A program made the position numbers and the translations under genes. Source: Rudaea sp. 3F27F6 (lineage in GTDB: Bacteria > Pseudomonadota > Gammaproteobacteria > Xanthomonadales > Rhodanobacteraceae). Taken from it: a DNA stretch of 64,000 nucleotides. Shown piece after piece: positions 2,710 to 23,600 of the stretch. The number at the start of each line of letters is the position of its first letter. Positions within the stretch are counted from its first letter, which is position 1. Below the pieces are notes generated by a model. The model was not told the origin of the DNA. It did no database searches and worked only from the letters and a program-made list of their open reading frames with translations. Location of the stretch: positions 248,001 to 312,000 of the forward strand of contig NZ_SCNG01000002.1 of assembly GCF_005503555.1 (NCBI RefSeq). Reading direction: 5' to 3'.

Positions 2710-3081
2710 TTATTTCAAGTCTTTGTGAAGCTTGCCGGCAAGATCGAGAAAGCGCGGACCGTCGGGCGTATTCACGCGATGCAGTGGATACAGCGGCGAT
2801 CGGCTCGCGCTGCCGGGTTGCCAGACGAGATCGAGCGCCTCGTCGGCCGCCGGCACCGTGCTCGCGCCCGAGGGATTCGCGGCCCAAGTCATAACGTCCT
2901 GCGCCGCCGCGTCGACCGCAGCGATCCAGCCTGGCGCGCCGGGCAAACCGAGCAGCACGAGCACATAGCTCGCATCGCGGTCGAGGCGACGCACCGGATA
3001 AGTGCGCGCCGGAACCTCCGCGCCAATTCCGACCGCCGCGCGGGCGATGCGCGCGGCGGCGGCGAGATCGTCTGTATCCAT
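2710..3081 (-). CDS. small conserved-looking hypothetical protein
   Basis: The frame encodes a 123-residue acidic-to-neutral protein with an even domain-like composition: an N-terminal helix rich in Ala, then YPVRRL, YVLVLLG, WIAAVDAAAQDVMTWA and WQPGSASRSPLYPLHRV. The WxxAVD...G/DVMxWA pattern looks like the two-stranded core of small proteins seen in Xanthomonadales genomes, but I cannot name a family. No signal peptide or membrane segment is visible. The ribosome-binding site is weak (AATAGAATGACCGA), so the start is uncertain. The gene stands alone between the Tat hydrolase gene and a block of extragenic repeats. Low-level coding by chance in high-GC DNA is the alternative, but the frame has sensible amino-acid content and no competing frame. 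Confidence 0.55.
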   Translation of the reverse strand: MDTDDLAAAARIARAAVGIGAEVPARTYPVRRLDRDASYVLVLLGLPGAPGWIAAVDAAAQDVMTWAANPSGASTVPAADEALDLVWQPGSASRSPLYPLHRVNTPDGPRFLDLAGKLHKDLK

Positions 3082-3116
3082 TCGGTCATTCTATTGATAC
3101 GGCACGCATATATATG

Positions 3117-3218
3117 AATCCGTTAGGGCTGAGCGTAGCACCGCAGGCGCGGAGTCGAAGCCTGTCGCGGCAGCACTTCGACTTCGCCGCTGTGCGGCTA
3201 CGCTCAGTGCGAACGGTT
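3117..3218. repeat. extragenic palindromic repeat, copy A
   Basis: Two ~40-nt arms face each other. The left arm reads CCGTTAGGGCTGAGCGTAGC onward to GAGTCGAAG; the right arm starts CTTCGACTTCGCCGCTG and ends GCTACGCTCAGTGCGAACGG. The arms are imperfect reverse complements and can form a long hairpin. The core CTGAGCGTAGC...AGTCGAAG recurs at 3307-3412, 26822-26920 and 27072-27114. It resembles REP/REPIN-type elements. It lies between two minus-strand genes. Confidence 0.85.
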
Positions 3219-3240
3219 AGAGATTCGGCATGTGAGATTG

Positions 3241-3312
3241 ATTGCTTGTCCGCTGTGCACGAATCCGTCCCAGCACTGTATGTGAATCCATTCGGGCGCT
3301 ACGTATGAATCC
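3241..3312. repeat. 23-bp tandem repeat, part of composite repeat element (locus 1)
   Basis: GAATCC occurs at 3261, 3284 and 3307, an exact 23-nt period, inside units of the form GAATCCGTCCCAGCACTGTATGT. The third unit runs directly into palindrome copy B. The same arrangement, with four units and opposite orientation, is found at 26918-26991. The flank CTTGTCC-GTG-ACGAAT is also shared, so this is a defined composite element rather than chance similarity. Confidence 0.8.
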
Positions 3313-3412
3313 GTTCGGGCTGAGCGTAGCGCCGGAGGCGCGGAGTCGAAGCCTGCCGCGGCGGCAGCTTCGACCCCGAAGCTGCGCGGCTACGCTCAGT
3401 ACAAGTGGCTGA
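3307..3412. repeat. extragenic palindromic repeat, copy B
   Basis: The left arm GTTCGGGCTGAGCGTAGCGC continues to GGCGCGGAGTCGAAGCC and the right arm is GCTTCGACCCCGAAGCTG followed by CGGCTACGCTCAGTAC. Its left arm is identical over about 39 nt to the reverse complement of 26881-26919. It ends just before the stop codon of the C39-like gene, so as RNA the hairpin would fold downstream of that gene and may act in 3' end formation. Confidence 0.85.
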
Positions 3413-3442
3413 AACTTCACCGGGTCGGATCAATACGAACGC

Positions 3443-4633
3443 TCAGAGGCCGCGATCGGTCGTGGTAAGCGAATGGAACACCGCGCCGTCGCTGCGCACG
3501 TAAAGCCGGTTCGCACCGTAAGTCACCAGCTTGAACGGATAGAACGGCGACAGCGATTCGCGGCACGGCCGCCATACCCAATGGTTGCTGATGCACGCCA
3601 CGCCGGGACGGATCAGCAGTTCACCGCGTCCTTCGCCGAGTTCGTGGATGCGGTCGATGATCAGCGCCTCGACCTCCTTGCGATCGAGGGTGAGCAAGGC
3701 CGTGCCTTTCGGTTCGGGCAGCGTGCGCGCCTGCAGATACTGACCGAAGCGCGCGTCGATGCTGACGACGGTCCTCGCCGAGTCGCCGTGCATATACGGC
3801 ACGATCCAGTAGAAACTGTCGAGGCGATCGAGGCGCTGCACCAGAACTCCCTTGCCGGGCTCGGTCCGTTCGAGTGCGGAATGCCAGTTCTTTCGCTGCA
3901 GCAGGCCGTGATCCTTCAGTGCCGCGCTCGCGAGGTCGGCAGCCTGCCGATGTTCGATCAATTCGTGCCCGGAGAACCGCGACAGTTCGATCTGGCGGCT
4001 ATGCGGCAGGCGGTCCGGCGGCGGATCGGGATCGCAGATCGCGACGAACTTACCGCCCCAGTGGCCGCTCGGGATGCCGGTCATGTAATCGTTGCGCCAC
4101 GAGGTGTAGGAGATGTGCTCGTCGGCGACGCCGCGGTTGCCGCCCGAGCCGCATACGTCGCCGACGCTGTGCGGCGGCGGCGGACCGGGCACCGGCGTCG
4201 GCGGCCACGGGTTGTTGATGTCGAAGCCGCTGATCGAATAACTCGTGTCGTAGGAATTCGCCGGGTCGGCACTCGTGGTGTAGCCGCGCACGACGATCCA
4301 GTGCGCCGAGCCGTAGACCATCGCGACCGGCGCAACGCGGTAGTGATGGATGGTCCAGACGATCATGCGCGAGATCGCTTCTTCGCTCGACAGTGCGTCG
4401 AGCACAAAGTATTTGCCCGACTGGCGATTGTTGAGCGTCCACTGCAGCCCGTCGGGCGCCGTATACCAGCCGCTTTCCGCCGTCGAGTGGCTATGGTTGT
4501 CGTTGTACAAATTGGTCTGGTTGAGCAGGCCGGCGCCGCACTGGGCGAGGACCATCTGCGCGCACGCCGCGCCGCAGTAATAGTCCGTGTCCTGCTGGTG
4601 GTATTGCGTGACCAAGTCGGTGGTGGTGCTCAT
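3443..4633 (-). CDS. C39-like (papain-fold) cysteine peptidase, no export signal
   Basis: The protein has 396 residues when started at the ATG at 4631-4633, which follows AGGAG at 8 nt; an in-frame upstream extension of 48 residues is Arg-rich and lacks a ribosome-binding site. The N-terminal ~150 residues match the peptidase_C39-like fold: oxyanion Gln14, nucleophile Cys20 in DYYCGAACAQMV, His112 in GSAHWIVVRGY and the Asp139/Asn141 pair in GFDINNPW. A Pro-rich linker (PPTPVPGPPPPH) separates this from a ~220-residue C-terminal part of unknown fold that contains WHSALERTEPGKG and YVRSDGAVFHSL. No ABC transporter or leader-peptide gene lies nearby, so it is not obviously a bacteriocin-processing enzyme. 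Without a signal peptide it may act in the cytosol or leave by another route. Confidence 0.7.
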   Translation of the reverse strand: MSTTTDLVTQYHQQDTDYYCGAACAQMVLAQCGAGLLNQTNLYNDNHSHSTAESGWYTAPDGLQWTLNNRQSGKYFVLDALSSEEAISRMIVWTIHHYRVAPVAMVYGSAHWIVVRGYTTSADPANSYDTSYSISGFDINNPWPPTPVPGPPPPHSVGDVCGSGGNRGVADEHISYTSWRNDYMTGIPSGHWGGKFVAICDPDPPPDRLPHSRQIELSRFSGHELIEHRQAADLASAALKDHGLLQRKNWHSALERTEPGKGVLVQRLDRLDSFYWIVPYMHGDSARTVVSIDARFGQYLQARTLPEPKGTALLTLDRKEVEALIIDRIHELGEGRGELLIRPGVACISNHWVWRPCRESLSPFYPFKLVTYGANRLYVRSDGAVFHSLTTTDRGL

Positions 4634-4950
4634 AAAGATTCTCCTGCGCGGACGAGTCCGCAGACGCGGGGACGGGACAGGCGCTTGCGCCTGCGTCAGC
4701 GTGCGGAATCGGACCGTGTGGCGCCGATCGCGCGCGCTTTGCGAGGAGTTACGTTTTACGGGGCGTGCGACTGACAATCCGCAGCGTCGACCTGCGGCGA
4801 GTCGGGAATCGCACTGCGTTCGTCGGAGACGCGAACGCGCTGGAGGCCAAAGCTCAAGGGGCCAACGGCTGCAAAGAATGCGGTTTTCGGTTTAACGCGC
4901 GCGGCAAGCCAGCGGCGTGCATATGCGCACGCCCCATGCAGGAAGGTGGA
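4634..4950. other. intergenic, no gene seen
   Basis: About 317 bp between two minus-strand genes. Apart from the ribosome-binding site of the C39-like gene near 4639-4645 I see no convincing promoter, repeat or terminator. Short frames here are Arg-rich and lack ribosome-binding sites. Confidence 0.5.
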
Positions 4951-5715
4951 TCAGAGTTTCTTGGACAACTCCGCCGCGGCCTTGCCAAGTGATTTGGCCG
5001 CTTCTTGCTGAGACACACCGCCCTCGGACAGCGGCAGATAGGGAATCGTCAGCGCAGCCACGGCCAGTCCCTCGCGCAGGATCGGCGCCGATAAATCGAC
5101 GATGCCTGGTGCGATCGAACTCGCGATCGCTGCGTGGCCTTTCGCGCGGATCGATTCGAGCTTCTGCGGCAATTCCTCCCGCTCATCCGGCGTGAGCCGC
5201 TTGCCGTACTGCTGCAGCCAGCGCGCGCGCACCGCTTCGGGCTGAAAAGCCGTCAGTACGAGACCGGAGGTGGCCTGAAGAAGGGGACGCCGATGACCGA
5301 TGCGCACCGCGAGGCCGAGATCGCCCGGCGATTCGGCGCGCGCGATGATCACCGTGTACTGATCCGAGGGCACTACGAGGTGACAGGATTGCAGGGTGTC
5401 TTCGCAGAGCTTGCGCATCCGCGGCAACGCGATTTCGAGCAGTTCGTTGAGCGGAGGGCGCTGCATGCCGAGCAGGAACAGACGATTGGTCAGCACATAG
5501 CCGTCGGTACCCTCGACGCGCTCGACATAGCGCAGGCGTTCGAGCACGTAGACCATGCGGAAGATTTCGCTCTTGGCGCGCCCTACTCCCAGCGAGATGT
5601 CCGAAAGATTCATCGGATACGAAGCACTGGAGATCAATTCGAGAATGCCCAGCCCCTTCTCGAGTGCCGGGGCGGTGTAGGTTGCAGTTCTTTCTGTCTT
5701 CCGGCCATTCGGCAT
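4951..5715 (-). CDS. IclR-family transcriptional regulator
   Basis: A 254-residue regulator of the IclR family, the usual length. The N-terminal winged helix-turn-helix (about 16-80) begins ALEKGLGILELISS and contains NLSDISLGVGRAKSEIFRMV. The C-terminal ligand-binding domain (about 90-250) includes VVPSDQYTVIIARAE, GHRRPLLQATSGLVLTAF and GIVDLSAPI. The ATG at 5713-5715 is preceded by GGAG at about 10 nt. The usual role is to control a nearby catabolic gene set in response to a small acid. The genes next to it do not form an obvious pathway, so its target is unknown. Its upstream region shares an 11- to 12-nt motif with the leader of the subtilase gene at 20656, a possible common operator. 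Confidence 0.9.
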   Translation of the reverse strand: MPNGRKTERTATYTAPALEKGLGILELISSASYPMNLSDISLGVGRAKSEIFRMVYVLERLRYVERVEGTDGYVLTNRLFLLGMQRPPLNELLEIALPRMRKLCEDTLQSCHLVVPSDQYTVIIARAESPGDLGLAVRIGHRRPLLQATSGLVLTAFQPEAVRARWLQQYGKRLTPDEREELPQKLESIRAKGHAAIASSIAPGIVDLSAPILREGLAVAALTIPYLPLSEGGVSQQEAAKSLGKAAAELSKKL

Positions 5716-6430: not shown

Positions 6431-9400
6431 ATGAGTTTGTGCTTTGCATTGCGGACGCCCGCATTGGCGGCCCCGACGAAGGTGCGTTCAGGCAAGGCGA
6501 GCCTGGGCATTTTTCGATCACAGCCTCGCACGCCGAATAGTGCTCCAGGCAAACTGCCTGTGTTCCTCGCATTTCTGCTCTGCTCGTCCTGGGCTTCTGC
6601 CGCCGTGACAATCAGCAAATCCGACGGCAAGAACACTTATGTGCCGGGCCAGTCGAATACCTATCTCGTCCGTATCACCAATTCGGGCACAACGACGGTG
6701 ACGGACGCCGTCTTCAAGGATTCTGCGATCGCCAATCTCAGCGTGACCGGCGTCACCTGCAGCAACGCCACGAATGGTTCGGCGTGCCCCGTCTCGGCGA
6801 GTACGACGGTGAGTGCGATGCAGGGGACGGGAATTCTCATTCCTGCGCTCACTCCGGCCGGCAGCGTGCTTTTCACCGTGATCGGCACGGTCGGCGCCGG
6901 CACCAGCGGCAATTTGTCCAATACGGCGACGGTCAGCAGCGCCGGCGTCACCAGTACGGCCACCGACACCGATGTCGCCGTCACGAGCACCGTGACCAAA
7001 ACCGCCTATGTCGGCGGCGTGGCCGCGACTAGCGTGATCCCGGGCAATACCGTGACCTACGCGATCTCGCAAAACGCCAATGCCAATATCAATCCGCCGA
7101 TCGATGTTGCGTTGACCGATACGATGTCGTCGAATCAGACTTACATCGGCAACGTCACCGCGAACACGACGGCACTTGGCTACGCCTGCGCCGGAGCGAC
7201 TTTGCAGAAAACCGGCGCGGGCTGGACGCTCTCCTGTCCCGCAAACGGCAGCGCTTTCAGCAACACTACACTGGGGACTTGGAGCGGCGCAGGCAATCAA
7301 CCGGGCACGGCCGGTCAATCCGTGTTTCTCTACGGCAACAACAGTCAATATGCCGTTCAAACGCTGAGCGGTTCCACCGCGAATGTGCTCGCGAATACTC
7401 CTATCCCAGGCGACGGCTACACCCCTTTCTTCGTCAACGACAGTGCGGGCGACCTGATTCTGAGCGCGATCAGCCATCACTCGGCATATCCCGGTGCGGC
7501 GCCCACCATCGCCTGCGCTAACTTCACTCAGAACACGAATTGCAATACGACGATTGTCGAAAGTACGACCGTAGCGCCCTCTCCTACCGTGATCGGTACG
7601 AAGGCTTATTTCAGCCTGTTCAACGGCACGATCGGTTGCGCCGACTACGCCTCCGGTACCCCGGTTAGTTGCGGCCAAGTGCAGTTGATCTCGGGCGCGG
7701 TCGATGCCATCAACACCTATAAGGACGCAGCAATCGGTCCGATGCTGGTCGGCGGCAAGCTGTACATGATTGGGATGAATTCCACCGGCAGACAATATCT
7801 GGGCTGCTACGATCCGGCGACTTCCGCGGTTTGTGCCGGCACCACCTCAGCCGGCACCTTGATCTATCCCGGCAGCACCGCAACCCTGCGGTACTACGGT
7901 TGGTTCAATCTCGGCAACGGCTCGATCGCGTTCTCCACCCAAGGCGAAGGTACGTTCTGCGTCAAGGTCACCGGCGTGACCACGGCGACGAATTGCGACG
8001 GCACTGCGTTGGCGCCGATCACGGCATCGAGCAAGCAAGTCATTCTGCCGATCAGTTCTGCCGGCAGCGTTACCGGATTTTGCTACGGCGCCTCGGGCGC
8101 GGTACCCACGTCCTGTCTCAATCTCAACCTGACCGCGACGACGCTGTCCACCAATCTGACCTTGCCTACCATCACCGATGTCTCCGTCAGCGGCAGCGCA
8201 AGCTCGGGCGTCACGCTGATTCCAGGCACTTCACGCATCGTCTTCAGTGCCGGCTATAGCCAGAATCCCAATATTGCCTGCTTCGACTATGCGACCAATA
8301 CAAGTTGCGGCAGCTTGCTCGGAACCAATCTGACTTACGGCACGGTGCTGGTGCCGAATTCGAGCTGCGTCATTTCCTACGGCGACAACGCCCCGGCGGG
8401 ATTTCTAGTCTACGATGCCTCGGGTTCGCTGAGGCCAAGTTCGCTCGCCGCCTGCAATCCCGCAGTCACGACGACAGATGCCGCTTTCAGCTTCAACGAC
8501 CCTGCCGCTCGCTACTGTGCACCCGGTAGCGGTGTAGGCAATTGGGGCGCACTGACCTTGACTGTCAATGCCGGCAGCATTCCCTCCGGAACTACCGTCA
8601 CTTTCAAGGACGGTACGAGCAACGCGACTATCGGAACCTATGTCGTCGGCAGCGTCGGCGCCGACGGTGCCGGCACGGCAACCGTAACGATTCCTCAATC
8701 GAGCTTCCCATCCGGAACGACATATCCCGCCCACCTTGGCTTGAACGTCGTTGTCTCGACGGTAGGAATGATCAGCGGTTCGACCCTGGCCGCAAACCTC
8801 GCCAACACCACGCTCGGCGCGGCGAACCCGCAAGTCTGCTATCAGGCCGTCGTCAACTCTTGCATCGGCACGACGAGCAATACGGCAACGATCGTTGGCG
8901 CAACAGCGTATGCCGGCTCTGGCACCACGTCTCTGACCTGTACGGCCAATGCCGATCTGGCGATCACAAAAACCGACGGCAAGCTGCTGTATACGCCGGG
9001 CGGCACGAACACGTACACCATCGTCGTCAGCAATAACGGTCCGTCCAATGCGGCGAACAACACGGTCAGCGATCCGTTGCCTGCAGGCATCACGACGGCA
9101 AGCTGGACTTGCAGCGGCAGCGGCGGCGGCACCTGCAGCGCGAACGGAATCGGCGCCATCAACGACACTGCGGTGAACCTGCCCGCCGGCGCAAGCGTCA
9201 CCTACACGCTCACCATGACGGTACCGAGTACCTTCACCGGCCCTCTTGCCAATACCGCCACCGTTACGGCGGGCCCGGGCGTCACCGACACCAACATCGC
9301 CAACAACACCGCCACCGATACGGATCTCTCTTTGCCGCGGGTCAGCTTGGCCAAGACACTTACGGGCGGTGCAGCCGCCACCAACACATTCAACTTCAGT

Positions 9401-10036
9401 CTGACCGGCGTCACCAATACGACCGACGTCGCGCCGAGTGTTGCCAATGGCGCGACTGTAACCTCGGCCGTACTCCACGTCGGCACCGCAGGCACGGCGG
9501 CATCGATAACCGAAACGTCGGCTGCGGGACCTGCACTGTCCGGCTATCAGACCAGCGTAAGGTGCACCGACGCGAATGCCCCCGGCGACGGCAATCCGAC
9601 AACCCCGATCACCTCGGCAGCGACGAGCGTGACCATCCCGGCCGCCAATATGGTGGGTGGCGCGGCATGGACATGCCTGTATACGAACATGGCAACGGCG
9701 AACGTGTCGATCTCCAAGACCGACTTCAACGGCAACTATTCGCCTGGCGGTAACGGCACCTATACCATCACGGTGGCCAACGCGGCGACGGCGACGGCGA
9801 ACGTGAGCGGAGCAGCCTTATCCGATCTCTTGCCTTCGGGAATGACCATCGCCGCACCGGGCATTACCTGCACTCCCAGCCCCGGCGTGACTTGCATGGG
9901 CAGCGGCAGCCCGGCAGGAACGGCGGGCACGGGTGTACTGAACGTACTTTCCGGATTGAGCTTAATGCTGCCTCCCGGCGGTGCCGCGACGATCGTGATT
10001 CCCGTCGTATACAGCGGCAACCCCTCGAACTACTAA
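6431..10036 (+). CDS. large secreted DUF11-repeat protein
   Basis: The 1201-residue protein starts at an ATG 4 nt after AAAGGGGAC. A long N-region (about 40 residues) leads into the signal sequence LPVFLAFLLCSSWASA, with cleavage near residue 57. DUF11-type Ig-like repeats lie at about 59-190, 190-285, 838-965 (KTDGKLLYTPGGTNTY, PSNAANNTVSDPLPAGI) and 1089-1201, and a related cysteine-bearing repeat at about 967-1085. Between about 285 and 665 is a different region with repeated Cys-x-Asp-Tyr...Cys units (IGCADYASGTPVSCG, LGCYDPATSAVCAG, IACFDYATNTSCG), suggesting a disulphide-stabilised propeller or similar fold. The protein ends VVYSGNPSNY with no membrane anchor or sorting tail. Role unknown; surface or secreted structural protein is the likely class. 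It faces a minus-strand cluster of related genes. Confidence 0.85.
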   Translation: MSLCFALRTPALAAPTKVRSGKASLGIFRSQPRTPNSAPGKLPVFLAFLLCSSWASAAVTISKSDGKNTYVPGQSNTYLVRITNSGTTTVTDAVFKDSAIANLSVTGVTCSNATNGSACPVSASTTVSAMQGTGILIPALTPAGSVLFTVIGTVGAGTSGNLSNTATVSSAGVTSTATDTDVAVTSTVTKTAYVGGVAATSVIPGNTVTYAISQNANANINPPIDVALTDTMSSNQTYIGNVTANTTALGYACAGATLQKTGAGWTLSCPANGSAFSNTTLGTWSGAGNQPGTAGQSVFLYGNNSQYAVQTLSGSTANVLANTPIPGDGYTPFFVNDSAGDLILSAISHHSAYPGAAPTIACANFTQNTNCNTTIVESTTVAPSPTVIGTKAYFSLFNGTIGCADYASGTPVSCGQVQLISGAVDAINTYKDAAIGPMLVGGKLYMIGMNSTGRQYLGCYDPATSAVCAGTTSAGTLIYPGSTATLRYYGWFNLGNGSIAFSTQGEGTFCVKVTGVTTATNCDGTALAPITASSKQVILPISSAGSVTGFCYGASGAVPTSCLNLNLTATTLSTNLTLPTITDVSVSGSASSGVTLIPGTSRIVFSAGYSQNPNIACFDYATNTSCGSLLGTNLTYGTVLVPNSSCVISYGDNAPAGFLVYDASGSLRPSSLAACNPAVTTTDAAFSFNDPAARYCAPGSGVGNWGALTLTVNAGSIPSGTTVTFKDGTSNATIGTYVVGSVGADGAGTATVTIPQSSFPSGTTYPAHLGLNVVVSTVGMISGSTLAANLANTTLGAANPQVCYQAVVNSCIGTTSNTATIVGATAYAGSGTTSLTCTANADLAITKTDGKLLYTPGGTNTYTIVVSNNGPSNAANNTVSDPLPAGITTASWTCSGSGGGTCSANGIGAINDTAVNLPAGASVTYTLTMTVPSTFTGPLANTATVTAGPGVTDTNIANNTATDTDLSLPRVSLAKTLTGGAAATNTFNFSLTGVTNTTDVAPSVANGATVTSAVLHVGTAGTAASITETSAAGPALSGYQTSVRCTDANAPGDGNPTTPITSAATSVTIPAANMVGGAAWTCLYTNMATANVSISKTDFNGNYSPGGNGTYTITVANAATATANVSGAALSDLLPSGMTIAAPGITCTPSPGVTCMGSGSPAGTAGTGVLNVLSGLSLMLPPGGAATIVIPVVYSGNPSNY

Positions 10037-10113
10037 AAGCTGAAGCAGGTTGCCGCTCGCCGCAACCGAAAGGTTTGCGCGTGCGCGAACATGGCTAGGC
10101 AGTCCGCTCCACT

Positions 10114-10144
10114 AGATCGCCTCAAAAAACAATTGAGGCGATCT
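10114..10144. terminator. hairpin between convergent genes
   Basis: A perfect 12-bp stem, AGATCGCCTCAA / TTGAGGCGATCT, with the 7-nt loop AAAACAA lies 78 nt after the DUF11 gene and 238 nt after the response-regulator gene on the other strand. There is no T-tract on either side, so it may act as an mRNA 3'-end stabiliser rather than a classic intrinsic terminator. I see nothing else in 10037-10381. Confidence 0.5.
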
Positions 10145-10381
10145 GTGAATGTTGGAAGGCGGCATCATCGATTTGCCGCGGTGTGCGTCGACTCTGCCAA
10201 GAGCTGGCCGCGGCAATTCGGAAAATACTTCGCAGCTCGATGCCATGAGCACACCACAAGCTCGCTCTTGGTGCGGCCAGATCCCATCGAATAAAGCCCA
10301 ATCAATCACGTTGCATGTCTCGCCGCGGAAACGGCGGGGACAAGCTGCGCCGAAACCGCGTCAATCGGTGCTCGTCCGCGA

Positions 10382-11041
10382 CTAGCCGCCGTTTGCCGCC
10401 GCAACGTCCACGGGCCCTTCCGCGGCATCCGACATCGGGCTCCTGACCAACAGCACTGCCTGAACGCGCGAACTGCATCCGAGCTTCGCCAGGATTGCGC
10501 TGACGTGTATTTTGACCGTGTTCTCGGAGAGGGAAAAATCGGTGGCGATCTGTTTGTTCGACAAACCGTCCGCCAGACGCAGCAATACACGAAGCTGTTG
10601 CGCGGTGAGCCGGTTCCGGCGCAGCGCCAGACCTGCATTGTCTTCATCGGGTGCAGTTTTCTGCGCGGGAAACCAGCGTCGGCCCGCGAGCACGGCGCTC
10701 AGAGCCTCATCCAGCTCCGTGTGAAAAGCCGATTTCGACACCAGGCCGGCAGCCCCAAATTGTTGGGCGCGACGCATGAAACAAGGACTCGCATTCGCCG
10801 AGACCAGAACGACAGGTAGCTGCGGACGCTCCGCGCCAAGATAGATCAAAGCAGAAAAGCCGGATGCTTCGGGCGTCGGCAAATCGAGCAGCACAAGATC
10901 CCATTCCGCGTCCTGCACGGCGGTCTTCAACTCCGCCAAGCCGGCAACATCGACGGCCACCGTACCAGGATGCCGATCCTCGACCACATAGCGCAGCATT
11001 ATGCGAAATGTCGGCTGATCGCCGACCACGAGAAGTTTCAA
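10382..11041 (-). CDS. NarL/FixJ-type response regulator
   Basis: A 219-residue two-domain regulator. The receiver (1-120) has Asp8 in place of the usual acidic pair, phospho-acceptor Asp53 (DLVLLDLPTP), Ser81 and Lys103 (LVSKSAF), so phosphorylation looks possible. The LuxR-type helix-turn-helix follows at about 145-205 (LTAQQLRVLLRLADGLSNKQ, SENTVKIHVSAILAKLG). The start is a TTG at 11041-11039, overlapping the TGA of the preceding DUF6573-like gene as TTGA, with TGGGGA just upstream, which suggests translational coupling. No histidine kinase gene is in the window. Being last in the series of DUF11 genes, it may control their expression, but this is an inference from position. Confidence 0.85.
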   Translation of the reverse strand: MKLLVVGDQPTFRIMLRYVVEDRHPGTVAVDVAGLAELKTAVQDAEWDLVLLDLPTPEASGFSALIYLGAERPQLPVVLVSANASPCFMRRAQQFGAAGLVSKSAFHTELDEALSAVLAGRRWFPAQKTAPDEDNAGLALRRNRLTAQQLRVLLRLADGLSNKQIATDFSLSENTVKIHVSAILAKLGCSSRVQAVLLVRSPMSDAAEGPVDVAAANGG

Positions 11042-11673
11042 GTTAAATCCCCAGTTGATGCAGCAGATGCGTTTAGAATTTGCTTACCCCGTCGGCTGCT
11101 GCGGTATGCGCCGCGTCTTTGCTGCTGCACGGGTTCGCCGCCCTCGGAGATGCCCTCGCCCGAGGACATCGCGACCTCTGCGAGCGATATCGTGACGACC
11201 GGCTCGCCGAAATCGCCCGGATCGCAACGGACCGCGAGATCGCTTTTGACCGCGATCTTTCCGCAAGTTTCGCGCTCGGCCTTGCTGGTAATCCGGTACA
11301 CGCTGAATTGCACCTCCCTGCTGCCGAGTTTGCGGCGTGCGGCCTGCAGAGCTTCCAGGAGGATGTTCAGAAGCCGGCGCTCCTTCATGCGCGGATTGCG
11401 CTTCAGCGCAGGCAAGTCGTGGCCGATCTCGATCAATCCAGTCCAAACATCGCGGCTGCATGCGACATGGACGGTGAAGCCGACTTCTCTGGCGAGACGG
11501 GATACGTCGACAAGCTCTCCCTTCTTCAGTCTCGCGGTTCGATCATCCGGATCCGAATCGGTTTGGAGCCCGGCGGACTTGGCTCGCGGTATTTTCAGAT
11601 TCCGCAGCTTGTCGGCCAGAAAAGAGCGGCGATCGACTGCTACCCCTTTTTTTCGAGTCGATGAAATTCTCAT
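11038..11673 (-). CDS. DUF6573-like protein with basic N-terminal extension
   Basis: The core (GELVDVSRLAREVGFTVHVA, RDVWTGLIEI, ERRLLNILLEALQAAR, VQFSVYRITS, CDPGDFGEPVVTISL) matches the DUF6573 pattern known from plasmid and integrative-element proteins of unknown function. The frame is open back to an ATG at 11817 that overlaps the end of the upstream DUF11 gene by 17 nt. I give the internal ATG at 11671-11673, before RISSTRKKGVAVDRR; AAGGA lies too close to it for a good site, so the start is open. The N-terminus is rich in Lys/Arg. The stop overlaps the TTG start of the response regulator, so the two are probably co-translated. Chromosomal placement beside a response regulator is unusual for this family. 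Confidence 0.6.
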   Translation of the reverse strand: MRISSTRKKGVAVDRRSFLADKLRNLKIPRAKSAGLQTDSDPDDRTARLKKGELVDVSRLAREVGFTVHVACSRDVWTGLIEIGHDLPALKRNPRMKERRLLNILLEALQAARRKLGSREVQFSVYRITSKAERETCGKIAVKSDLAVRCDPGDFGEPVVTISLAEVAMSSGEGISEGGEPVQQQRRGAYRSSRRGKQILNASAASTGDLT

Positions 11674-11800
11674 GTCCTTTTCGGCGCGCTGCGCGCCTCC
11701 CCGTTTGTGGCTCTTGAAGTTTTTCGAGCAAATTCCGTCACCGACTCCGTGACTGCCTCGAACGAACTCGGCAACGCGGAGAGACCGCTTATGCGTCCCA

Positions 11801-14161
11801 TCACGGCGCAGTGACATTGACCTGGATCGTGCAACTGCTGTTTGCGTTCACGCTGCCGCCTCCGAGCGCCACGCTGGTGCCACCCGGCACCGCCGTCACC
11901 GTTGCACCGCCGGCCGCCGTGCAGGTGGTGCCTGCCGCAGACGGATTGGCAATCACCATTCCACTCGGCGAAGCTGGAAAGTTGTCGGTCAGCGCCAAAC
12001 CGGTCAGGTCCACCGCACCCGGCGCGGTATTCGCGATCGCGATGGTCAGCGTGCTCGTGCTACCCGACGAAATAGTGGGCGGATTGAAAGCCTTGGTCAG
12101 CATCACGTTCGGTACGCGCGTGTTCCGGTACGCGCAGGTGATCGACACATCGGCGCCGCTGGTCGTCAAGGTGTTGCCGCTCAGTGCACCCGCGTTGCCC
12201 GTACAGACCAAAGCCTTCAAGTAACTGCTGGCACTCGCCACCGTTTCGGCGAAATTGACCGATTGCCCGTAGCCGACGTGCAACAGCGCCGCGTAGGTGT
12301 CGGTCGCATTCGCCGATGGCGCCGTGTCGTTGAACGTTGCGGTTCCCACGGCCGGCGTGCCACTGTTCGGCGAGGCGATCGTATTTGTCGCGGTGATGAC
12401 GGCAGCATCGCCTGGCGTGGCGTTTATCCAGGTCTTCTGCAATGTCAACTTGACGGCGAGATAGCCGAAATCGGCGATCGCGATCTGGTTCGGGAGTACC
12501 AGCGCCGATACATTGTTCGAGGTTCCCAATGTCACGCCAGCCGGAATAGCGGGGTTCGTCGCCGCAACCTGCACCGTATAGGCCCCGGCATTCGTGGGAT
12601 CCGCCACCGCGGCGACCGACGATGCCACCACGTTCTGAAACGAATAATTGCCGTTCTGGTCGGTCAGGTCGGAGGCAACAATGACGCCCACATTGTTGAC
12701 CAGATTGACCACGATGCCTGCCGGCAATCCCGCTTCTCCCGCATTCGCGGCGCTATTGCGGTTATCGTCGTAGTAGAGCGTTCCGTTGACGCTGCCGGCC
12801 GGCAAATCCGTGCACGTCGCGAGGACGATGTCGTCAAGCGCCAGATCGTTGCCGGCGCCGCCGTTGCCGTTGTTCTGGAAGTAAAACGTGACCTGCGTAG
12901 CGGCACCGGTATTGAACAATACGGCGTATTGATTCCAGGTCGGCGGGCTGGTCGGATAAACGGTGCCCGTCATATACAGCACCGTGCGCGTGCCGGGGGC
13001 GTCCACGCCCTGCCGATTGACCGCGAACTGCAAGTTGTAAGGCAACGCCAGCCCGGATGGATTTGTGCCCCAGTACGTGTTGTTCGGATTGTCCACGTGC
13101 ATGGCCCAGATCGAAAACTGGTAGTTTGTGTAAGGCAGCAGACCGGTGATCGTTTGCTGGAAAAATGCCGTCGGCGGCTGACCGGTCGGATTGATCGTGG
13201 CGTTGACTACCATCATCAGACTGTTCGGATCGCCTTGGGGGCCGACCGTTTCGAGCGAACTGCGGTCGCCTGCCACCCAGTAGAAAACACCGTTGCGCGT
13301 GTTGCCGGCGAAGCTCGAGCGATTGCTGATGGTGTAGTAGCCGTCCGTCATCACGTTCGCGTTGGTTTGATTGGACAGCGGCCACATCGTCAGGCTCGTC
13401 AGCCCTCCGCCCGTCAGCGGACCGGTAAACGTGCCTGGCCGCGAACTGTTGCCCACGGTATTGCTCGCCATGCTGCCGAAGCTGCCGGCCCCATCGGCCG
13501 GATTGGCCGAAGTCGCAAACGTCGAAAACGTGTTCGCTCCGAGCGTGCCCGTCAATTTCGGGCAACTGCCTGAGGAGAGCACCTGGCGTATGCCGTTGAT
13601 CGTGCTGATCACCGACACGGTCGGCGTGATGGTGCCGCCGGTGGCGGTCGCGGCAACCGTATTGACGAGGGCATTCGTCGCCGTGATGGTCGACGGATTG
13701 CCGGCCGGAGGATTCGCCACGGCGCCCGTCATTGCCAGTTGGTCGACCCAGACCGAGATCGTCGCCGTCGCCGTGGTCGAGACGCTGCCGGTGCAAGTCA
13801 CCGTGTAGGTGACCGGGCCCGTCGTGCCTGAGGCGACACTCGAACAAGTCAGCCCGCCTGTACCCGAAACACTGCCGGGAAACAGTCCCACCGGTAACCT
13901 GTCCGTCAAAGTGATGCCCGTGGTCGTGGTTCCACTGTTGGTCAAGTTGAGTGTGTATGTGGCGCTGGCATTTCCGCTCACTGCCTGCCGCCCTACATTC
14001 CAACCGGCGACACCGGCATTCGACGTCATCGTCATCGTGACCGTGCCCGCATGCGCCGCGAACGCGAACCATGCCAATGCAAAAAGCAGCAGGCTCGCGG
14101 CGCGCGATTGCCGTGGTGCGACCGAAGACACTTTGGACGGTGCCTGTCGATTGCGTTTCAT
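11801..14161 (-). CDS. secreted DUF11-repeat protein with SdrD-B-like module
   Basis: A 786-residue exported protein. The signal peptide is MKRNRQ...AASLLLFALAWFAFAAHAG (cleavage near 38). A DUF11-type repeat follows (TLNLTNSGTTTTGITLTDRL). The middle part (about 190-460) reads like a carbohydrate-binding-type beta-sandwich (NSRPGTFTGPLTG, YQFSIWAMHVDN, YFQNNGNGGAGNDLALDD). An SdrD-B/Cna-B-like module comes next (GTLYYDDNRNSAANAGEAGL, DQNGNYSFQNV), then two more Ig-like repeats. The last repeat stops abruptly at CTIQVNVTAP, with no anchor. The ATG overlaps the stop of the upstream gene (ATGA). Its stop lies inside the long version of the downstream DUF6573-like frame. Likely a cell-surface or released structural protein; ligand unknown. 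Confidence 0.85.
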   Translation of the reverse strand: MKRNRQAPSKVSSVAPRQSRAASLLLFALAWFAFAAHAGTVTMTMTSNAGVAGWNVGRQAVSGNASATYTLNLTNSGTTTTGITLTDRLPVGLFPGSVSGTGGLTCSSVASGTTGPVTYTVTCTGSVSTTATATISVWVDQLAMTGAVANPPAGNPSTITATNALVNTVAATATGGTITPTVSVISTINGIRQVLSSGSCPKLTGTLGANTFSTFATSANPADGAGSFGSMASNTVGNSSRPGTFTGPLTGGGLTSLTMWPLSNQTNANVMTDGYYTISNRSSFAGNTRNGVFYWVAGDRSSLETVGPQGDPNSLMMVVNATINPTGQPPTAFFQQTITGLLPYTNYQFSIWAMHVDNPNNTYWGTNPSGLALPYNLQFAVNRQGVDAPGTRTVLYMTGTVYPTSPPTWNQYAVLFNTGAATQVTFYFQNNGNGGAGNDLALDDIVLATCTDLPAGSVNGTLYYDDNRNSAANAGEAGLPAGIVVNLVNNVGVIVASDLTDQNGNYSFQNVVASSVAAVADPTNAGAYTVQVAATNPAIPAGVTLGTSNNVSALVLPNQIAIADFGYLAVKLTLQKTWINATPGDAAVITATNTIASPNSGTPAVGTATFNDTAPSANATDTYAALLHVGYGQSVNFAETVASASSYLKALVCTGNAGALSGNTLTTSGADVSITCAYRNTRVPNVMLTKAFNPPTISSGSTSTLTIAIANTAPGAVDLTGLALTDNFPASPSGMVIANPSAAGTTCTAAGGATVTAVPGGTSVALGGGSVNANSSCTIQVNVTAP

Positions 14162-15162
14162 GGCGCGGTCACGTTCACGCTGATCGCGCAGCTAGCGCCA
14201 GCACTCACACTGCCTCCGGTCAAAGTCACCGAAGTTATTCCCGCGGCGATCGAGGTCGACACCAAACCGGCGCCGCATGTCGTGCTCGAGTTCGGCGGCG
14301 ATGCGATGCTCACGCCGCTCGGCAGGTTGTCGGTCAGCCCGATGCCGGTCAGGTTGACTGCTCCAGGCGCGGTATTCGCAATGGTGATCGTCAACGTCGA
14401 AGTTCCTCCCGACGCGATCGTCGACGGACTGAATTGCTTGCTCACAAGTACATTCGAAGCTGCGCTCACGTTGGTCACGACGCTTGCGCAACTCGGCCCC
14501 GGCGTACATCCGGCACCCGGTGTCGGCGGGCTCGTTCCGCCGGTCGGATCGGTCGACGCCACGTTGGTCAAACTGCCCGTCGCCGTCGCCATGACCGACA
14601 GGGTGAATCTGGGCGCTGCGGCGGCGCTGCTCGGCGTACCGGCTGCAAGCGCCGTACCGAGAGTGATCGAACACGTCAACGACGCCGGACCGGTTGCCGA
14701 TGCGGGCGCGCACGCGACCGCGGAAATGCCGCTGCCGGGAGTCGCCGCACTGACGGTCAAACCGCTCGGCACAACGTCCGTGACGGTAAGCACGGTGCCG
14801 GCCGGAATCAGGCCGGACCCGGTGTTGCCGACGGCGAGTTGATAAGCGAACGGGGTATTCAGAGCCGCCGTTGCGGGAGCGCCCTTCGTCAGCGTGACGA
14901 CCCAGGCGAGCACATCCGTATCGCTCGCCGTACAGACAGACGCCAAAGCGATACTGTTGGCATTCGTGCACGCGACATTGGTGTTTGCCGTTCCCACCGG
15001 GACGGTCGCGCTTGCCGTGTTGGTGATCGACGCAGGAAAACTCGCGGCCAGCGCAATCGAGCTTGCGCAAAACCCCGTTGCGAGGATCAAAGCCATGGCG
15101 CGCTCGGCGACTTGGCGTCGGGAATCGGTGACGGAAGCATTCCCCTTATTTCTAAAACACAC
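14158..15162 (-). CDS. secreted DUF11-repeat protein
   Basis: The exported part begins RRQVAERAMALILATGFCASSI, a plausible signal peptide ending ALAA. The start is unsure: the ATG at 15094-15096 has no positive N-region and no ribosome-binding site, while a GTG at 15160-15162 would give a 334-residue protein with a charged N-region. I list the GTG. Two DUF11-type repeats are visible: FAYQLAVGNTGSGLIPAGTV with TVTDVVPSGLTV, and VSKQFSPSTIASGGTSTLT with IANTAPGAVNLTGIGLTDN. A Pro/Gly linker holds a Cys pair (GAGCTPGPSCAS). The last repeat ends CAISVNVTAP, the same place as in the next gene, to which it is joined by an ATGA overlap. No anchor is present. Confidence 0.75.
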   Translation of the reverse strand: MCFRNKGNASVTDSRRQVAERAMALILATGFCASSIALAASFPASITNTASATVPVGTANTNVACTNANSIALASVCTASDTDVLAWVVTLTKGAPATAALNTPFAYQLAVGNTGSGLIPAGTVLTVTDVVPSGLTVSAATPGSGISAVACAPASATGPASLTCSITLGTALAAGTPSSAAAAPRFTLSVMATATGSLTNVASTDPTGGTSPPTPGAGCTPGPSCASVVTNVSAASNVLVSKQFSPSTIASGGTSTLTITIANTAPGAVNLTGIGLTDNLPSGVSIASPPNSSTTCGAGLVSTSIAAGITSVTLTGGSVSAGASCAISVNVTAP

Positions 15163-15488
15163 ATCACCACCGCACAGGTGCCTTTTGGTCACCCGTCGAC
15201 AAACTGGATCGGCGGAGTTCTTCGCAAGCCGCGCTCTCGGAGCGTTCCCGAAATACATGGATATTCCAGAATGCCGGATAAGTGTTGTCTCGATCGGTCG
15301 CATACGTGGTCGTGACTCGAAAAATTGATCTGGATTGGAAACTGCGGCAGACATCGGAAAACTCTTCGCCGGCGCCCCTTTCATGAACCTTGCCGTCGGA
15401 AAACCGCAATCGACCAAAGCGCTGCATACTCGAAAGGCCGCCGCTCAACATGTCGCGAGCCTTTTCAGGTTCACAACAACCGTTTGGA
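15163..15488. other. intergenic between DUF11 genes
   Basis: About 326 bp upstream of the DUF11 gene and downstream of the frameshifted gene. Frames here are Cys/Ser/Arg-rich without family features. No clear promoter could be read. Confidence 0.4.
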
Positions 15489-16576
15489 CTACAAGCACCT
15501 CGGTAGTCGCAGGAAGCAGATTCCGACGAGCGCCGGGGCAAACAGCACATGCAGCCAATTACCAAACAGGGGTACAGGCACCTGCGTCGGCGGCCGAGCT
15601 GTGGCGATAAGCGGATTGACGAACGACACGGAATTGCCTACTGCAACAACCGATGCGATGGTCTGCACCGGCAGTGGCGCGCCCCAATGGGAATCCGCCG
15701 GCAGATTCGCCGGCGCAGTCTCGCTCACGGTGCAGCTTGCACCGACCGGCACGCCGGCAATCGTCGGCGCGCCACTGCCTACAGTCAGCGCCTGCGTCGT
15801 CATAAGTTGTCGCAGCCGGAAAGGCTGTACGCGCCCACGGTGACATCGCCCACGCAGGCCGCCGTCGGCATCGCCCACGTCACCAGGTACGGGAAACACA
15901 GCGGCGAGGTGATGATGCTCGCCGCGCCCCCGATGATGTTGTTGGTAACCGTCAGCGGCGCCGTGGCGGGGCCGCCGTTCGAGGCCGCAACGCCCTCGAT
16001 CTTCGCCGTCATCGCTCCGGCGGCGATCGTGCTGACGTAAGGCGTCGCCGATGGTGTTGCGCTCGTGACAGGTACGTCGATCTCGCATGCTCCACCCGCG
16101 GGAATCGAACCGCCACTCAATATGATCGAACCGGAACCCACCGCGGTGGTGATCGAAATATCGCAGCCGTCGATGTCGCTCGCGGCCCCTGTAACCGTGA
16201 CGCCGTTCGGCAGCGTATCAGTCAAGCTCAAGCTGCCCGCGTCGATCGGATTGGCAAAAAAGTTGACCAGATCGATCTTGAGCACCGAGTTCTGACCGAC
16301 CCAGATTACCGCCGGCTCGAAATACTGGGTCACGCCGATCGACTGGGTCGTGCCAAGCGGTTGGGAAAAGTTCGCAGTCCCGAGATTCTGAATTCTGTCG
16401 CCGGCGAAGTCCGCCTCCGCGGCGGCCGGGCTGAGAGCGATTTCGAAAAAATGCTGCGGCATGACGCCAGGCAAGCGGCCGAGATGCGGGCCGGAAAATG
16501 CACGGCAGCCAGGGGCGGCGACCGCGGTCAAGATCGGCACCGGTATTGCCTCCGCGTGAATGGCGATGCAGATCAC
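15489..16576 (-). pseudogene. DUF11-like secreted protein gene, apparent frameshift near 15800
   Basis: The first frame (GTG at 16576 to a TGA at 15800) encodes 258 residues with a DUF11-like repeat (VLKIDLVNFFANPIDAGSLS, LTDTLPNGVTV) and ends SLSGCDNL. The next frame continues from the same place as MTTQALTVGSGAPTIAGV, GASCTVSETAPANLP and VGNSVSFVNPL, and ends in a Pro-hydrophobic-basic tail (VPVPLFGNWLHVLFA then PALVGICFLRLPRCL) that looks like an IPTL/PEP-CTERM-type sorting signal. Read together they make one protein with an intact repeat and an anchor, so a one-base shift at about 15800-15810 is the simplest explanation. The second frame also has an ATG overlapping the stop (ATGA), so a separate coupled gene is possible, but it would lack a signal peptide. 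The N-terminus is a poor signal sequence. Sequencing error is also possible. Confidence 0.6.
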
Positions 16577-20655: not shown

Positions 20656-23600
20656 GTGATATTGCAATCTCACGCCGAAACGAGCGTCTGCACGAGCTCC
20701 GCTGCGCCCGCCAATCCCCTGCGCCGCAATGCGGTCAGGAAAACCGCGCTCGCCGCCGCATCCCTGCTCTACGTCGCCGGCTACGGCAGCCTCTTCGCAC
20801 AGATGACTCCGCCGCTTCTTTCCTCGCTCGCCGAAGCGGAAGCGGCCGGTGCGGTGCAGAATCCGGCGGCTGCCGAATTCGAGCAGCTATTGAAGCGCCT
20901 CGATCCGAATCAGGCCGATGCCATGCGCGGGCTGATCGGGCCGGACCTTGCGGCCGCGGCCGCCGGTCCGTCCGCCCCAGCCTCCGCCATTCCGGGCCGT
21001 CGCGAATACCTCGTCGTGCTCGCCGGCGATTCCGTGGCGACGACGCTGCGCGCCTCGCGCGACAGCGTCGCGGCGCAGGCGCCGATGCTTGCCCGCAGCC
21101 TCGGTCCGATCGGCGACCGGCTCGACCCGCAGTCGACCGACAGCCTGCGCCTCGTCGCCCAGCAGCGCGCCAGCCAGAGTCAGGTCGCCGCCCGCGCCGC
21201 CGCCGCAATCGGCCGCTCTCTGCCGGTCGAACGCAACTACCACTATGCGCTCAACGGCATGCTCCTGCGCCTGACCGACGCCGAAGCCCTGAAACTGCGC
21301 GGCGTCGACGGCGTCAGCAAGGTCATCCGGCCGACCTACGGCAAGCTGACCACCGACGTCAGCGTTCCCTACATCGGCGCGCCCGAGCTCTGGAACGCGC
21401 CCGCCCCATTCGGCACGCGCGGCGAACACACGATCGTCGGCGTCCTCGACACGGGCGCCAATCTCGGCAGCCCCTCATTCGCCGACATCGAGTGGGAAAC
21501 CAACGGCGCCTGGTCGATACCGAGCTACCACTTCACCAATCCGCTCGGAGCGGGCAACTACCGCGGCTGGTGCGCTCCGGGCCGAGCCACGCAGGACAAA
21601 TGCAACAACAAGCTGATCGGCACCTACGACTACGCCTACCCCTACGTCCTCGCCAATCCGAAACAGTTCCCGCCGCCGATTAGCGAGCTGCCCGGCGTCA
21701 CCGACCAGAACGGCCATGGTTCGCACACCGCCAGTACCGCGGTCGGTGATAGCCGCCTGGCCAGTTACTTCGGCAATCGCACCATGACGGGTGTGGCGCC
21801 GCACGCAAATCTCGAAATCTTCCAGGTCTGCGCCTCTGCAACCCAATGCGGTGGCCAGATGATGATCGACGCCGTCGAACAGGCCATTCTCGACGGAATC
21901 GACGCACTCAACTACTCCATCGGCCCCGCCGGCGGCGACAAAACCGATTCGCCTTGGGACAGCTCCGAAATGCTGGCGTTTCTGTCGGCGGTCGATGCAG
22001 GCATCTTCGTCGCCGCGGCCGCGGGCAACGACGGTCCGGGAACAGGCACCGTTTCCAATACGGCGCCCTGGGTCGCGACCGTGGCCGCGACCACGTCGCC
22101 GCGCGACAGCATCGGCAACTATCTCAGCGTGAACGGCCGCGGTGCCGGCAAGCCTGACGACATGCCGCTGCACACATCGTCGGGACCGATGCGCAACTAT
22201 CCGTGGAACGGCCTCAAGCTGAAAGTCAGCCCGACGTTCGCATCGGGCGGCGACTGTGGTCCCTATCCGACCGACTATTTCAAGGGAACGGTCGCTCTCA
22301 TCGATATGGGCTACACGTCGGCAGGCGCTACCGCCCACGGCTGCGAGACTTACTCCGACGGCGTCGTAAGCGCCGTCGCGGCCGGTGCTGTCGCCGTGGT
22401 CGGCACGAACAACCTCAATGGTGCGTTCAACCTCGATCTCGGCGGTCCGAGCGTGCCCGCGTCCCTGGTCGCGCGCAGCGCCGCGGTCCAGCTCGCCGCG
22501 TTCGCCGCTGCGCAGCCCGAAGGTCTGGCCCAGGTGAACTTCAGCGCCGGAATCGACCTGCCGACCCGCGCGGACCAGATCACCTGGTTCAGTTCGCGCG
22601 GCCCGACCCTGAGCAATGAGACGCTCAAGCCCGATATCGCCGCGCCGGGCTGGAACATCCTCGCCGCCTACAGGGGCGCGCCAGGCCGCGTTGCCATGAT
22701 TTCCGGTACCTCGATGGCCACGCCGCACATCACCGGCGTGGGAGCGCTGCTCAAATCGGCGCATCCCGACTGGAGCCCGGCCGAGATCAAGTCGGCGATG
22801 ATGCTGACCGCGAAGGACGACGGCCTCGCCCTCATGCAGACCGACGGGACGATCGGCGGCGGCGCCACTCCGCTCGAACAGGGCGCGGGCCGAGTCCAGG
22901 TGGACCTCGCCGCGAAATCGGGCCTGGTAATGCACGAGAGCGGACTGAACTACCTCCAGGCCGATCCGGCCAACGGCGGCGACCCGACCGCGTTGAACGT
23001 CCCCTCGCTTTACAGCAGCTCCTGCTTTCCGGGCTGCACGTTCAAGCGCCGCTTCAAGAACGCGCTCGAAACACCGCAGCAATGGAACACGTCGATCGCG
23101 CTGCCGGGGTCCAAGGGCGCCACGGTATCGCCGGCGAGCTTCACCGTCGCGCCGGGACGAAGCGCCGAGGTCGTCTTCACCATCGACAATTCGTCCGCGC
23201 AAACAGCCGCGTTCAGCACCGGCAGGGTAACGCTGACGTCGGCGGACCGCAGCAGCCAGACGCTGCACCTGCCGATCGCCGTGCGACGGGCGCCGCCGCT
23301 GGCCAGCGTCTCGCCCGCGTCCCTCGCGGTCACCGTCAAGTCCGGCGTGAGCACGCAGACCAGCCTGCAGATCGCCGCGGCTCCGAAGCGCCTGCCCGTG
23401 CATTGGACTTACCAAACGACCGGCAGGGCAGATGTCCCCTTGGCCGGCGACAACAGCTACGTCGACGAACGTACGACGCCGGAAATGGACTCGTCGGTCT
23501 ACGACGACGGCGGAAACTCCTACCTCGCCCAGCGCGTCACCATGCCGACGTGGATGCCGCCGGACTCGCCGCCGACGGCTTTCTCCTCGTACGGCCGCCC

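Follow-up and report, generated by a model that had tools for sequence, protein, structure and literature searches.

The locus described here raises the question why secreted, adhesin-like proteins should end in the middle of a domain. The window analyzed is a stretch of 64,000 nucleotides from Rudaea sp. 3F27F6 (C9:248001-312000; host genome 5.70 Mb, 63% G+C), in which two adjacent genes, b and c, carry a signal peptide, called by eye here and throughout, and a last domain that belongs to PF25564 (DUF7933). Gene b scores 70.1 bits and gene c 82.8 bits against the profile (cut-off 26.5), and the last DUF7933 match of each covers only profile positions 3-93 of 123. Both proteins terminate with ..VNVTAP (pattern ..VxVTAP, then the stop), exactly between beta-strands E and F, and a DUF11 gene on the plus strand of the same region stops at a nearly equivalent place (position 95 of the full-domain model, followed by nine residues). 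The first-pass annotation of this DNA did not mention that genes b and c, and nearly also the plus-strand gene, stop inside a domain. As the most likely reading, on which we would bet at slightly better than even chances, these half-domains act as catchers in a natural covalent tag/catcher mechanism, the missing half being supplied as a tag by another secreted protein. This reading is carried by four features seen in the sequences: the exact split, the retained Lys and Asp residues, a complementary half on an adjacent gene in one pair, and intact residue triads in relatives.

DUF11 and DUF7933 are both listed as isopeptide domains, with the positions of the Lys, Asp and Asn residues, in the available part of the only paper on DUF7933 that a literature search found (PMC12617251). 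For the DUF7933 example given there (Lys 973, Asp 1008, Asn 1068) the bond is predicted, while DUF11 has a crystal structure, 9IFR (PMC12617251). In the AlphaFold model of a full-length relative (mean predicted local distance difference test score, pLDDT, 96.3), strand E spans positions 87-97, strand F spans 101-107 and includes the Asn (105), and strand G spans 124-130; the best match of the model in the PDB was the isopeptide domain 9IFR. From the modelled strand boundaries it follows that the catchers stop in the E-F loop, about seven positions before the Asn. All three residues are present in 215 of the 255 full-length copies from the fetched loci (212 of 251 after near-identical copies had been collapsed).

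A search of the whole host genome retrieved another three complete genes that end in this way, two on contig C2 (2934-5606 and 10913-12913) and one on contig C15 (8892-10961), and two further genes with the same half-domain that are cut by contig ends (C2 and C16), giving seven host genes in all. In all five complete catchers the match runs to model position 97, and a single residue remains before the stop. After none of their stops did any of the three frames continue the domain, which rules out a frameshift or stop read-through as the cause of the truncation in these five genes. The right ends of contigs C2 (L048, 13.8 kb) and C16 (L050) both lie inside nearly identical DUF7933 ends; the assembly thus seems to be broken there, and additional genes for catchers or tags may be concealed.

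The position of the stop was compared with that in other genes at the fetched loci, a non-random sample chosen for DUF7933 or related domains. It yielded 114 distinct stop-ended frames with a match, and the counts rest on the 70 in which the last domain reached at least 40 bits. The match extends to model position 120 or beyond in 58 of these, and in three it is lost at 107-119, yet the protein continues for at least 54 residues. Nine frames lose the match at position 98 or before, and seven of the nine end within one residue of position 97-98: the five complete host catchers and two genes from G043, a genome of another genus of the same family. The other two are the window's DUF11 gene on the plus strand (position 95) and a gene at locus L180, which continues for 23 unrelated residues. 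The G043 genes are consecutive DUF11/DUF7933 genes (8736-14740 in L110, which is G043:C2:98001-118000) ending between strands E and F with ..VRVAAAP and ..VRVGSAP. Each shares an ATGA with the gene that follows, at the nine-base word GCGCCATGA, which is also the word found in gene c.

We then asked which of the three residues the half-domains retain. In the host catchers, which comprise strands A-E, the Lys of strand A is present in all five complete copies and the Asp of strand C in all seven, including the two partial ones; the acceptor Asn of strand F is absent from the catcher's own chain in all seven. In the DUF11 half-domain encoded on the plus strand Lys and Asp both align and the Asn is absent. 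In the two G043 catchers the Asp aligns, and the Lys was read by eye before an insertion, outside the model alignment. Lys and Asp are both present in only 8 of the 26 full-length copies without the Asn, as against 215 of the 229 copies that have it. The difference between these Asn-less copies and the complete host catchers (5/5) gives a Fisher p value of 0.008, the copies not being independent, and with the two G043 genes and their by-eye Lys added (7/7) p is 0.0015. The copies are related, and the retention of Lys and Asp is therefore support rather than proof.

The complementary half was found on contig C2. Catcher 2934-5606 is followed immediately downstream by the tag gene (start 2510), which has the same orientation and whose mature product begins, by eye, with TDYPNSIAASTLTSTQGATNSGPANATLST directly after the signal peptide. 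The segment TDYPNSIAASTLTSTQGATNSGPANATL matches model positions 102-128 with 25.8 bits (E 8e-7), the best of 2000 shuffles reaching 12.6 bits. In the full-domain alignment the tag gene provides columns 101-130 of 130 with the Asn in place, and the catcher provides columns 1-98. In this one pair, outside the window, two separate chains together complete one DUF7933 domain as far as sequence alignment can tell. A scan of whole reading frames recovered no tag half, not even the one on C2, and isolated post-signal peptides were used instead. Among 7,387 peptides following a signal-like stretch, taken from 285 sequences (the window and the fetched loci, some overlapping), only the C2 tag gene exceeded 8 bits in the tag scan, and the runner-up reached 5.4 bits. 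Beyond the tag, the protein continues into repeats 60-78% identical to one of them, and its far end lies beyond the contig. The repeat also occurs in the neighboring C2 catcher (67%) and in the C15 catcher (62%).

In the mechanism that we propose, the DUF11-type genes of the region would encode secreted adhesin-like proteins ending in an A-E half of the DUF7933 or DUF11 type, which contains the Lys and the catalytic Asp. The F-G half with the acceptor Asn would sit at the mature N-terminus of another secreted protein, as in the C2 pair. Outside the cytoplasm the two halves would fold together and a Lys-Asn isopeptide bond would form between the two proteins. Interchangeable heads, which carry the adhesive function but no membrane anchor, would thereby be welded to a stalk without a sortase. 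We infer the association in trans and the formation of the bond, and likewise that the C2 tag may also serve genes b and c of the window. A more tentative extension, which we rate at somewhat less than even chances, is a sortase-free system with a family of catcher-bearing heads and tag-bearing stalks, in which self-made bonds would allow heads to be exchanged on a common stalk and proteins with both tag and catcher (the gene c product may be one) would polymerize head to tail.

The architecture of the proteins was examined with this in mind. The proteins of the island had been annotated as secreted surface-type proteins, which agrees with their signal peptides and with our finding that they are fibrillar-adhesin-like and composed of domains from isopeptide-type families. 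The catcher proteins contain families known or predicted to be of the isopeptide kind: SdrD_B in gene b, SpaA_3 in all three catchers on C2 and C15, SpaA_4 in one of these three, and SpaA_4 together with DUF11 and DUF7507 in the G043 gene that was scanned. By eye, the N-terminal regions differ among the catcher proteins. Nine large DUF11/DUF7933 proteins of the host whose ends were read (on C8, C9, C10, C12, C14 and C15; one matches only below cut-off) have a hydrophobic, anchor-like tail and a basic end. Seven of these tails were tested and gave matches to IPTL-CTERM (three), Loki-CTERM (one) and midcut-by-XrtH (four), all below the curated cut-offs; two match nothing, and the tail of the broken gene in the window matched none of the CTERM-type profiles tested. 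The catchers, in contrast, lack a hydrophobic anchor-like tail, and this difference would fit a head that is retained on the cell only through a partner.

Several observations weigh against a covalent tag/catcher mechanism. A convincing tag was found once only and outside the window; none was found beside four of the five complete catchers, nor in the genes following the G043 catchers within the stretches read, and the window holds no statistically supported tag. The mature N-terminus of gene c (FPASITNTASATVPVG...) resembles a DUF11-type F-G hairpin by eye and would suit the DUF11-type catcher of the plus-strand gene. Its match to the DUF7933 model was not significant, it scored 4.9 bits against a model of host DUF11 domains (best shuffle 16.5) and 3.7 bits against an F-G model from 12 non-redundant copies (best shuffle 12.4), and in the model of the mature gene c protein (mean pLDDT 66) it is disordered (pLDDT 33-40). 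Given the non-significant scores and the disordered model, head-to-tail linkage in the window via this N-terminus was set aside and kept only as a possibility. The N-terminus of the broken gene was also tried as a tag and rejected with a score of about zero. The catcher half in the gene c model shows strands A, B and E and no proper strand C, the strand taken to pair with F. The test of residue retention loses force if the host catchers descend from one event, and with one count per genus (the G043 Lys again by eye) p rises to 0.12. A tree of the short domains does not group the five host catchers cleanly; they fall among Eremiobacterota copies and one Chloroflexi copy, with a support of 0.8.

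The closest full-length relatives found in the genome collection are from Eremiobacterota metagenome bins (L074, L075), at 62-65% identity, and not from the same family. Against the catcher model the Eremiobacterota copies score at most 110.7 bits, compared with 144-152 bits for the complete catchers, and the best other genome among 299 of the order reaches 96.8 bits. Horizontal transfer possibly lies behind this likeness. The triad is invariant in all 18 close full-length copies from two Eremiobacterota bins.

It is unlikely that the halves associate non-covalently, one completing the other with a strand or hairpin in the manner of donor-strand pili, and that Lys and Asp are kept for packing. 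Such an association would explain the split at a strand boundary, the catcher-half model without a proper strand C would offer an open edge, and two usher genes are present elsewhere in the host genome, but the retention of Lys and Asp in the complete catchers, as opposed to the Asn-less full-length copies, suggests that the chemistry matters, and the C2 tag retains its Asn. The host has usher matches only at C8:1368459-1369940 and C9:144505-145950; neither falls within the window, and contigs C2 and C15 have none. The bacterium may thus also make ordinary chaperone-usher pili.

We also regard it as improbable that the half-domains are remnants of gene fission, a multi-domain ancestor having been split within a domain and its truncated end duplicated, with the halves tolerated but inert. 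The stop site is shared by seven host genes and two of another genus, and Lys and Asp are kept in the complete host copies; an unfolded half-domain would be expected to decay. The C2 pair does resemble a single domain into which a stop and a new signal peptide have been inserted, the C2 stalk protein has repeats in common with two of the catchers, and for most catchers no tag was found alongside, all of which would suit fission. The C-terminal Ig-like (immunoglobulin-like) domain of type IX cargo serves as a signal, and a similar role of the half-domain in sorting or secretion would account for the C-terminus shared by secreted, anchorless proteins that are otherwise diverse, but we consider it very improbable since it explains neither why a neighboring gene begins with the matching F-G half nor why Lys and Asp are retained; no search for cognate secretion genes was made.

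The features of the region are collected in Table 1. The DUF11-type genes (one of them broken), the response regulator and the DUF6573 frame noted in the first-pass annotation are all present, and the profile matches agree with them. Of the gene overlaps that it claimed, ATGA (14158-14161) and TTGA (11038-11041) are confirmed; an overlap of 17 bases between gene b and the DUF6573 frame could not be established, as it exists only under the longest reading of that frame. An alternative ATG is found some 145 bases inside the frame, the Pfam match begins at residue 95, and the G+C content of the third codon position exceeds that of the first only from about base 11517 onward, which is a weak sign for the start since the regulator itself does not have this pattern. 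Any later start of the regulator would, by eye, delete the first receiver strand.

Table 1. Coordinates of the features in the DUF11/DUF7933 region, numbered from the first nucleotide of the window.
Feature	Position	Strand	Evidence
Secreted DUF11/SpaA_4 protein, 1201 residues	6431..10036	+	PF01345, 80.6 bits; PF24514, 61.6 bits
C-terminal DUF11-type half-domain of the plus-strand gene	9701..10036	+	Ends ..TIVIPVVYSGNPSNY ahead of strands F-G; aligned to full-domain model up to position 95
NarL/LuxR-type response regulator	10382..11041	-	PF00072, PF00196; TTG start overlaps stop of DUF6573 frame
DUF6573 frame	11038..11817	-	PF20213, 35.5 bits (cut-off 27); conserved part from about residue 92; start uncertain
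Gene b, secreted, SdrD_B and terminal DUF7933 half-domain	11801..14161	-	Profile matches
Catcher half-domain, C-terminus of gene b	11804..12115	-	..TIQVNVTAP stop; Lys and Asp present
Gene c, secreted, DUF11-like domain and terminal DUF7933 half-domain	14158..15417	-	Profile matches
Catcher half-domain, C-terminus of gene c	14161..14454	-	..AISVNVTAP stop; Lys and Asp present
Possible DUF11-type F-G tag, mature N-terminus of gene c (FPASITNTASATVPVG..)	14902..15045	-	Without statistical support
Broken DUF7933/DUF5979 gene, two frames (15800-16576, 15489-16088)	15489..16576	-	Hydrophobic C-terminus

Residues 322-450 of gene b gave non-significant CBM/MAM-like matches. The full DUF7933 copy of the broken gene lacks, by eye, the isopeptide Lys and Asn, and its frame break (15800-15850) has the form of a stop/ATG overlap, ATGA, like the junction between genes c and b. 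DUF11-type domains are common in the host, as PF01345 has 96 matches in the genome, spread over seven contigs. A search of PDB sequences with gene c and the plus-strand gene gave no match, Rfam and tRNA scans returned nothing, and promoter and terminator scans found sites about as often as in shuffled sequence. Near the island, a gene at 20656-24267 (+) encodes a large secreted protease of 1203 residues, subtilase-like by eye, and a gene at 3443-4777 (-) encodes a protein weakly similar to C39-like cysteine peptidases, below cut-off.

The first-pass annotation had further proposed that the DUF11-type genes form a regulated surface-protein system with the linked regulator and DUF6573 genes, and had named co-occurrence of these genes with DUF11 genes in other genomes as the test. 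The DUF6573 protein has matches in 16 of the 147 genomes of the family, the host included. We read 22 loci, two further host copies and 20 of the 25 matches elsewhere (the other five were left out), over up to about 6 kb per side, several stretches being shortened by contig ends. No DUF11 or DUF7933 gene was found at any of the 22 at an E value of 0.001, and a regulator-like match occurred at only one, a weak one of 18.5 bits. Nor did the 14 loci of the best homologs of the regulator (at most 50% identity, about 1.5 kb per side) contain a DUF6573 or DUF11-type gene. The DUF6573 copy on contig C15 is flanked by genes that are, by eye, kinase-like and dehydrogenase-like. No paper on DUF6573 was found in a literature search. 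The absence of co-occurrence indicates that the linkage to the DUF11 genes is local, so that the proposed system is not supported and a conserved link to either gene was rejected. Hence the regulator and the DUF6573 gene are probably bystanders and not part of the assembly system; given their overlap, they may be translated together.

How the proposed mechanism relates to known systems was considered next. The closest are CLIPPER (DUF11), DUF7933 and kindred intramolecular isopeptide domains (Costa et al. 2025, PMC12617251), which share with the present proteins the Pfam families and the order and place of Lys, Asp and Asn, in addition to the top structural match. In the cases covered by the available part of that paper all three residues lie in one chain, whereas here the strands with the Asn are on another protein. 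SpyTag/SpyCatcher-type pairs are alike in being split isopeptide domains, in which the larger piece contains the Lys, the partner residue sits on a separate strand, and the two rejoin covalently; they were engineered from CnaB according to the available text of PMC5487036, whereas the present pair is encoded in a genome, belongs to a CnaA-like domain and has a two-strand hairpin as its tag. Archaeal threads (Saci_0406) combine donor-strand complementation with a proposed isopeptide bond between subunits; in the portion of PMC9715654 at hand that bond runs from the amino group at the N-terminus to the side chain of an Asn two subunits along, and no split Lys-Asp-Asn domain is described. In chaperone-usher pili, too, an incomplete C-terminal Ig-like domain is completed by the N-terminus of another subunit, as the same portion of PMC9715654 describes. 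These pili are non-covalent and need a chaperone and an usher, whereas here two strands are missing and no usher gene lies beside the subunit genes. Phage capsid crosslinks and auto-crosslinking sporesilk fibers, mentioned in the available part of PMC12617251, are natural self-made isopeptide bonds between proteins, but in the accounts given there neither the capsid proteins nor the alpha-helical hairpin of sporesilk is a split Ig-like domain. Among the matches listed in a search of the open-access literature, no natural split isopeptide domain was found.

Tag/catcher pairs are the work of engineers, who divided isopeptide domains into two parts. If the proposed mechanism is true, it would represent an unrecognized sortase-free route to covalent surface structures in bacteria and a source of ready-made protein glues, and it would explain a class of surface proteins that are otherwise taken for truncated.

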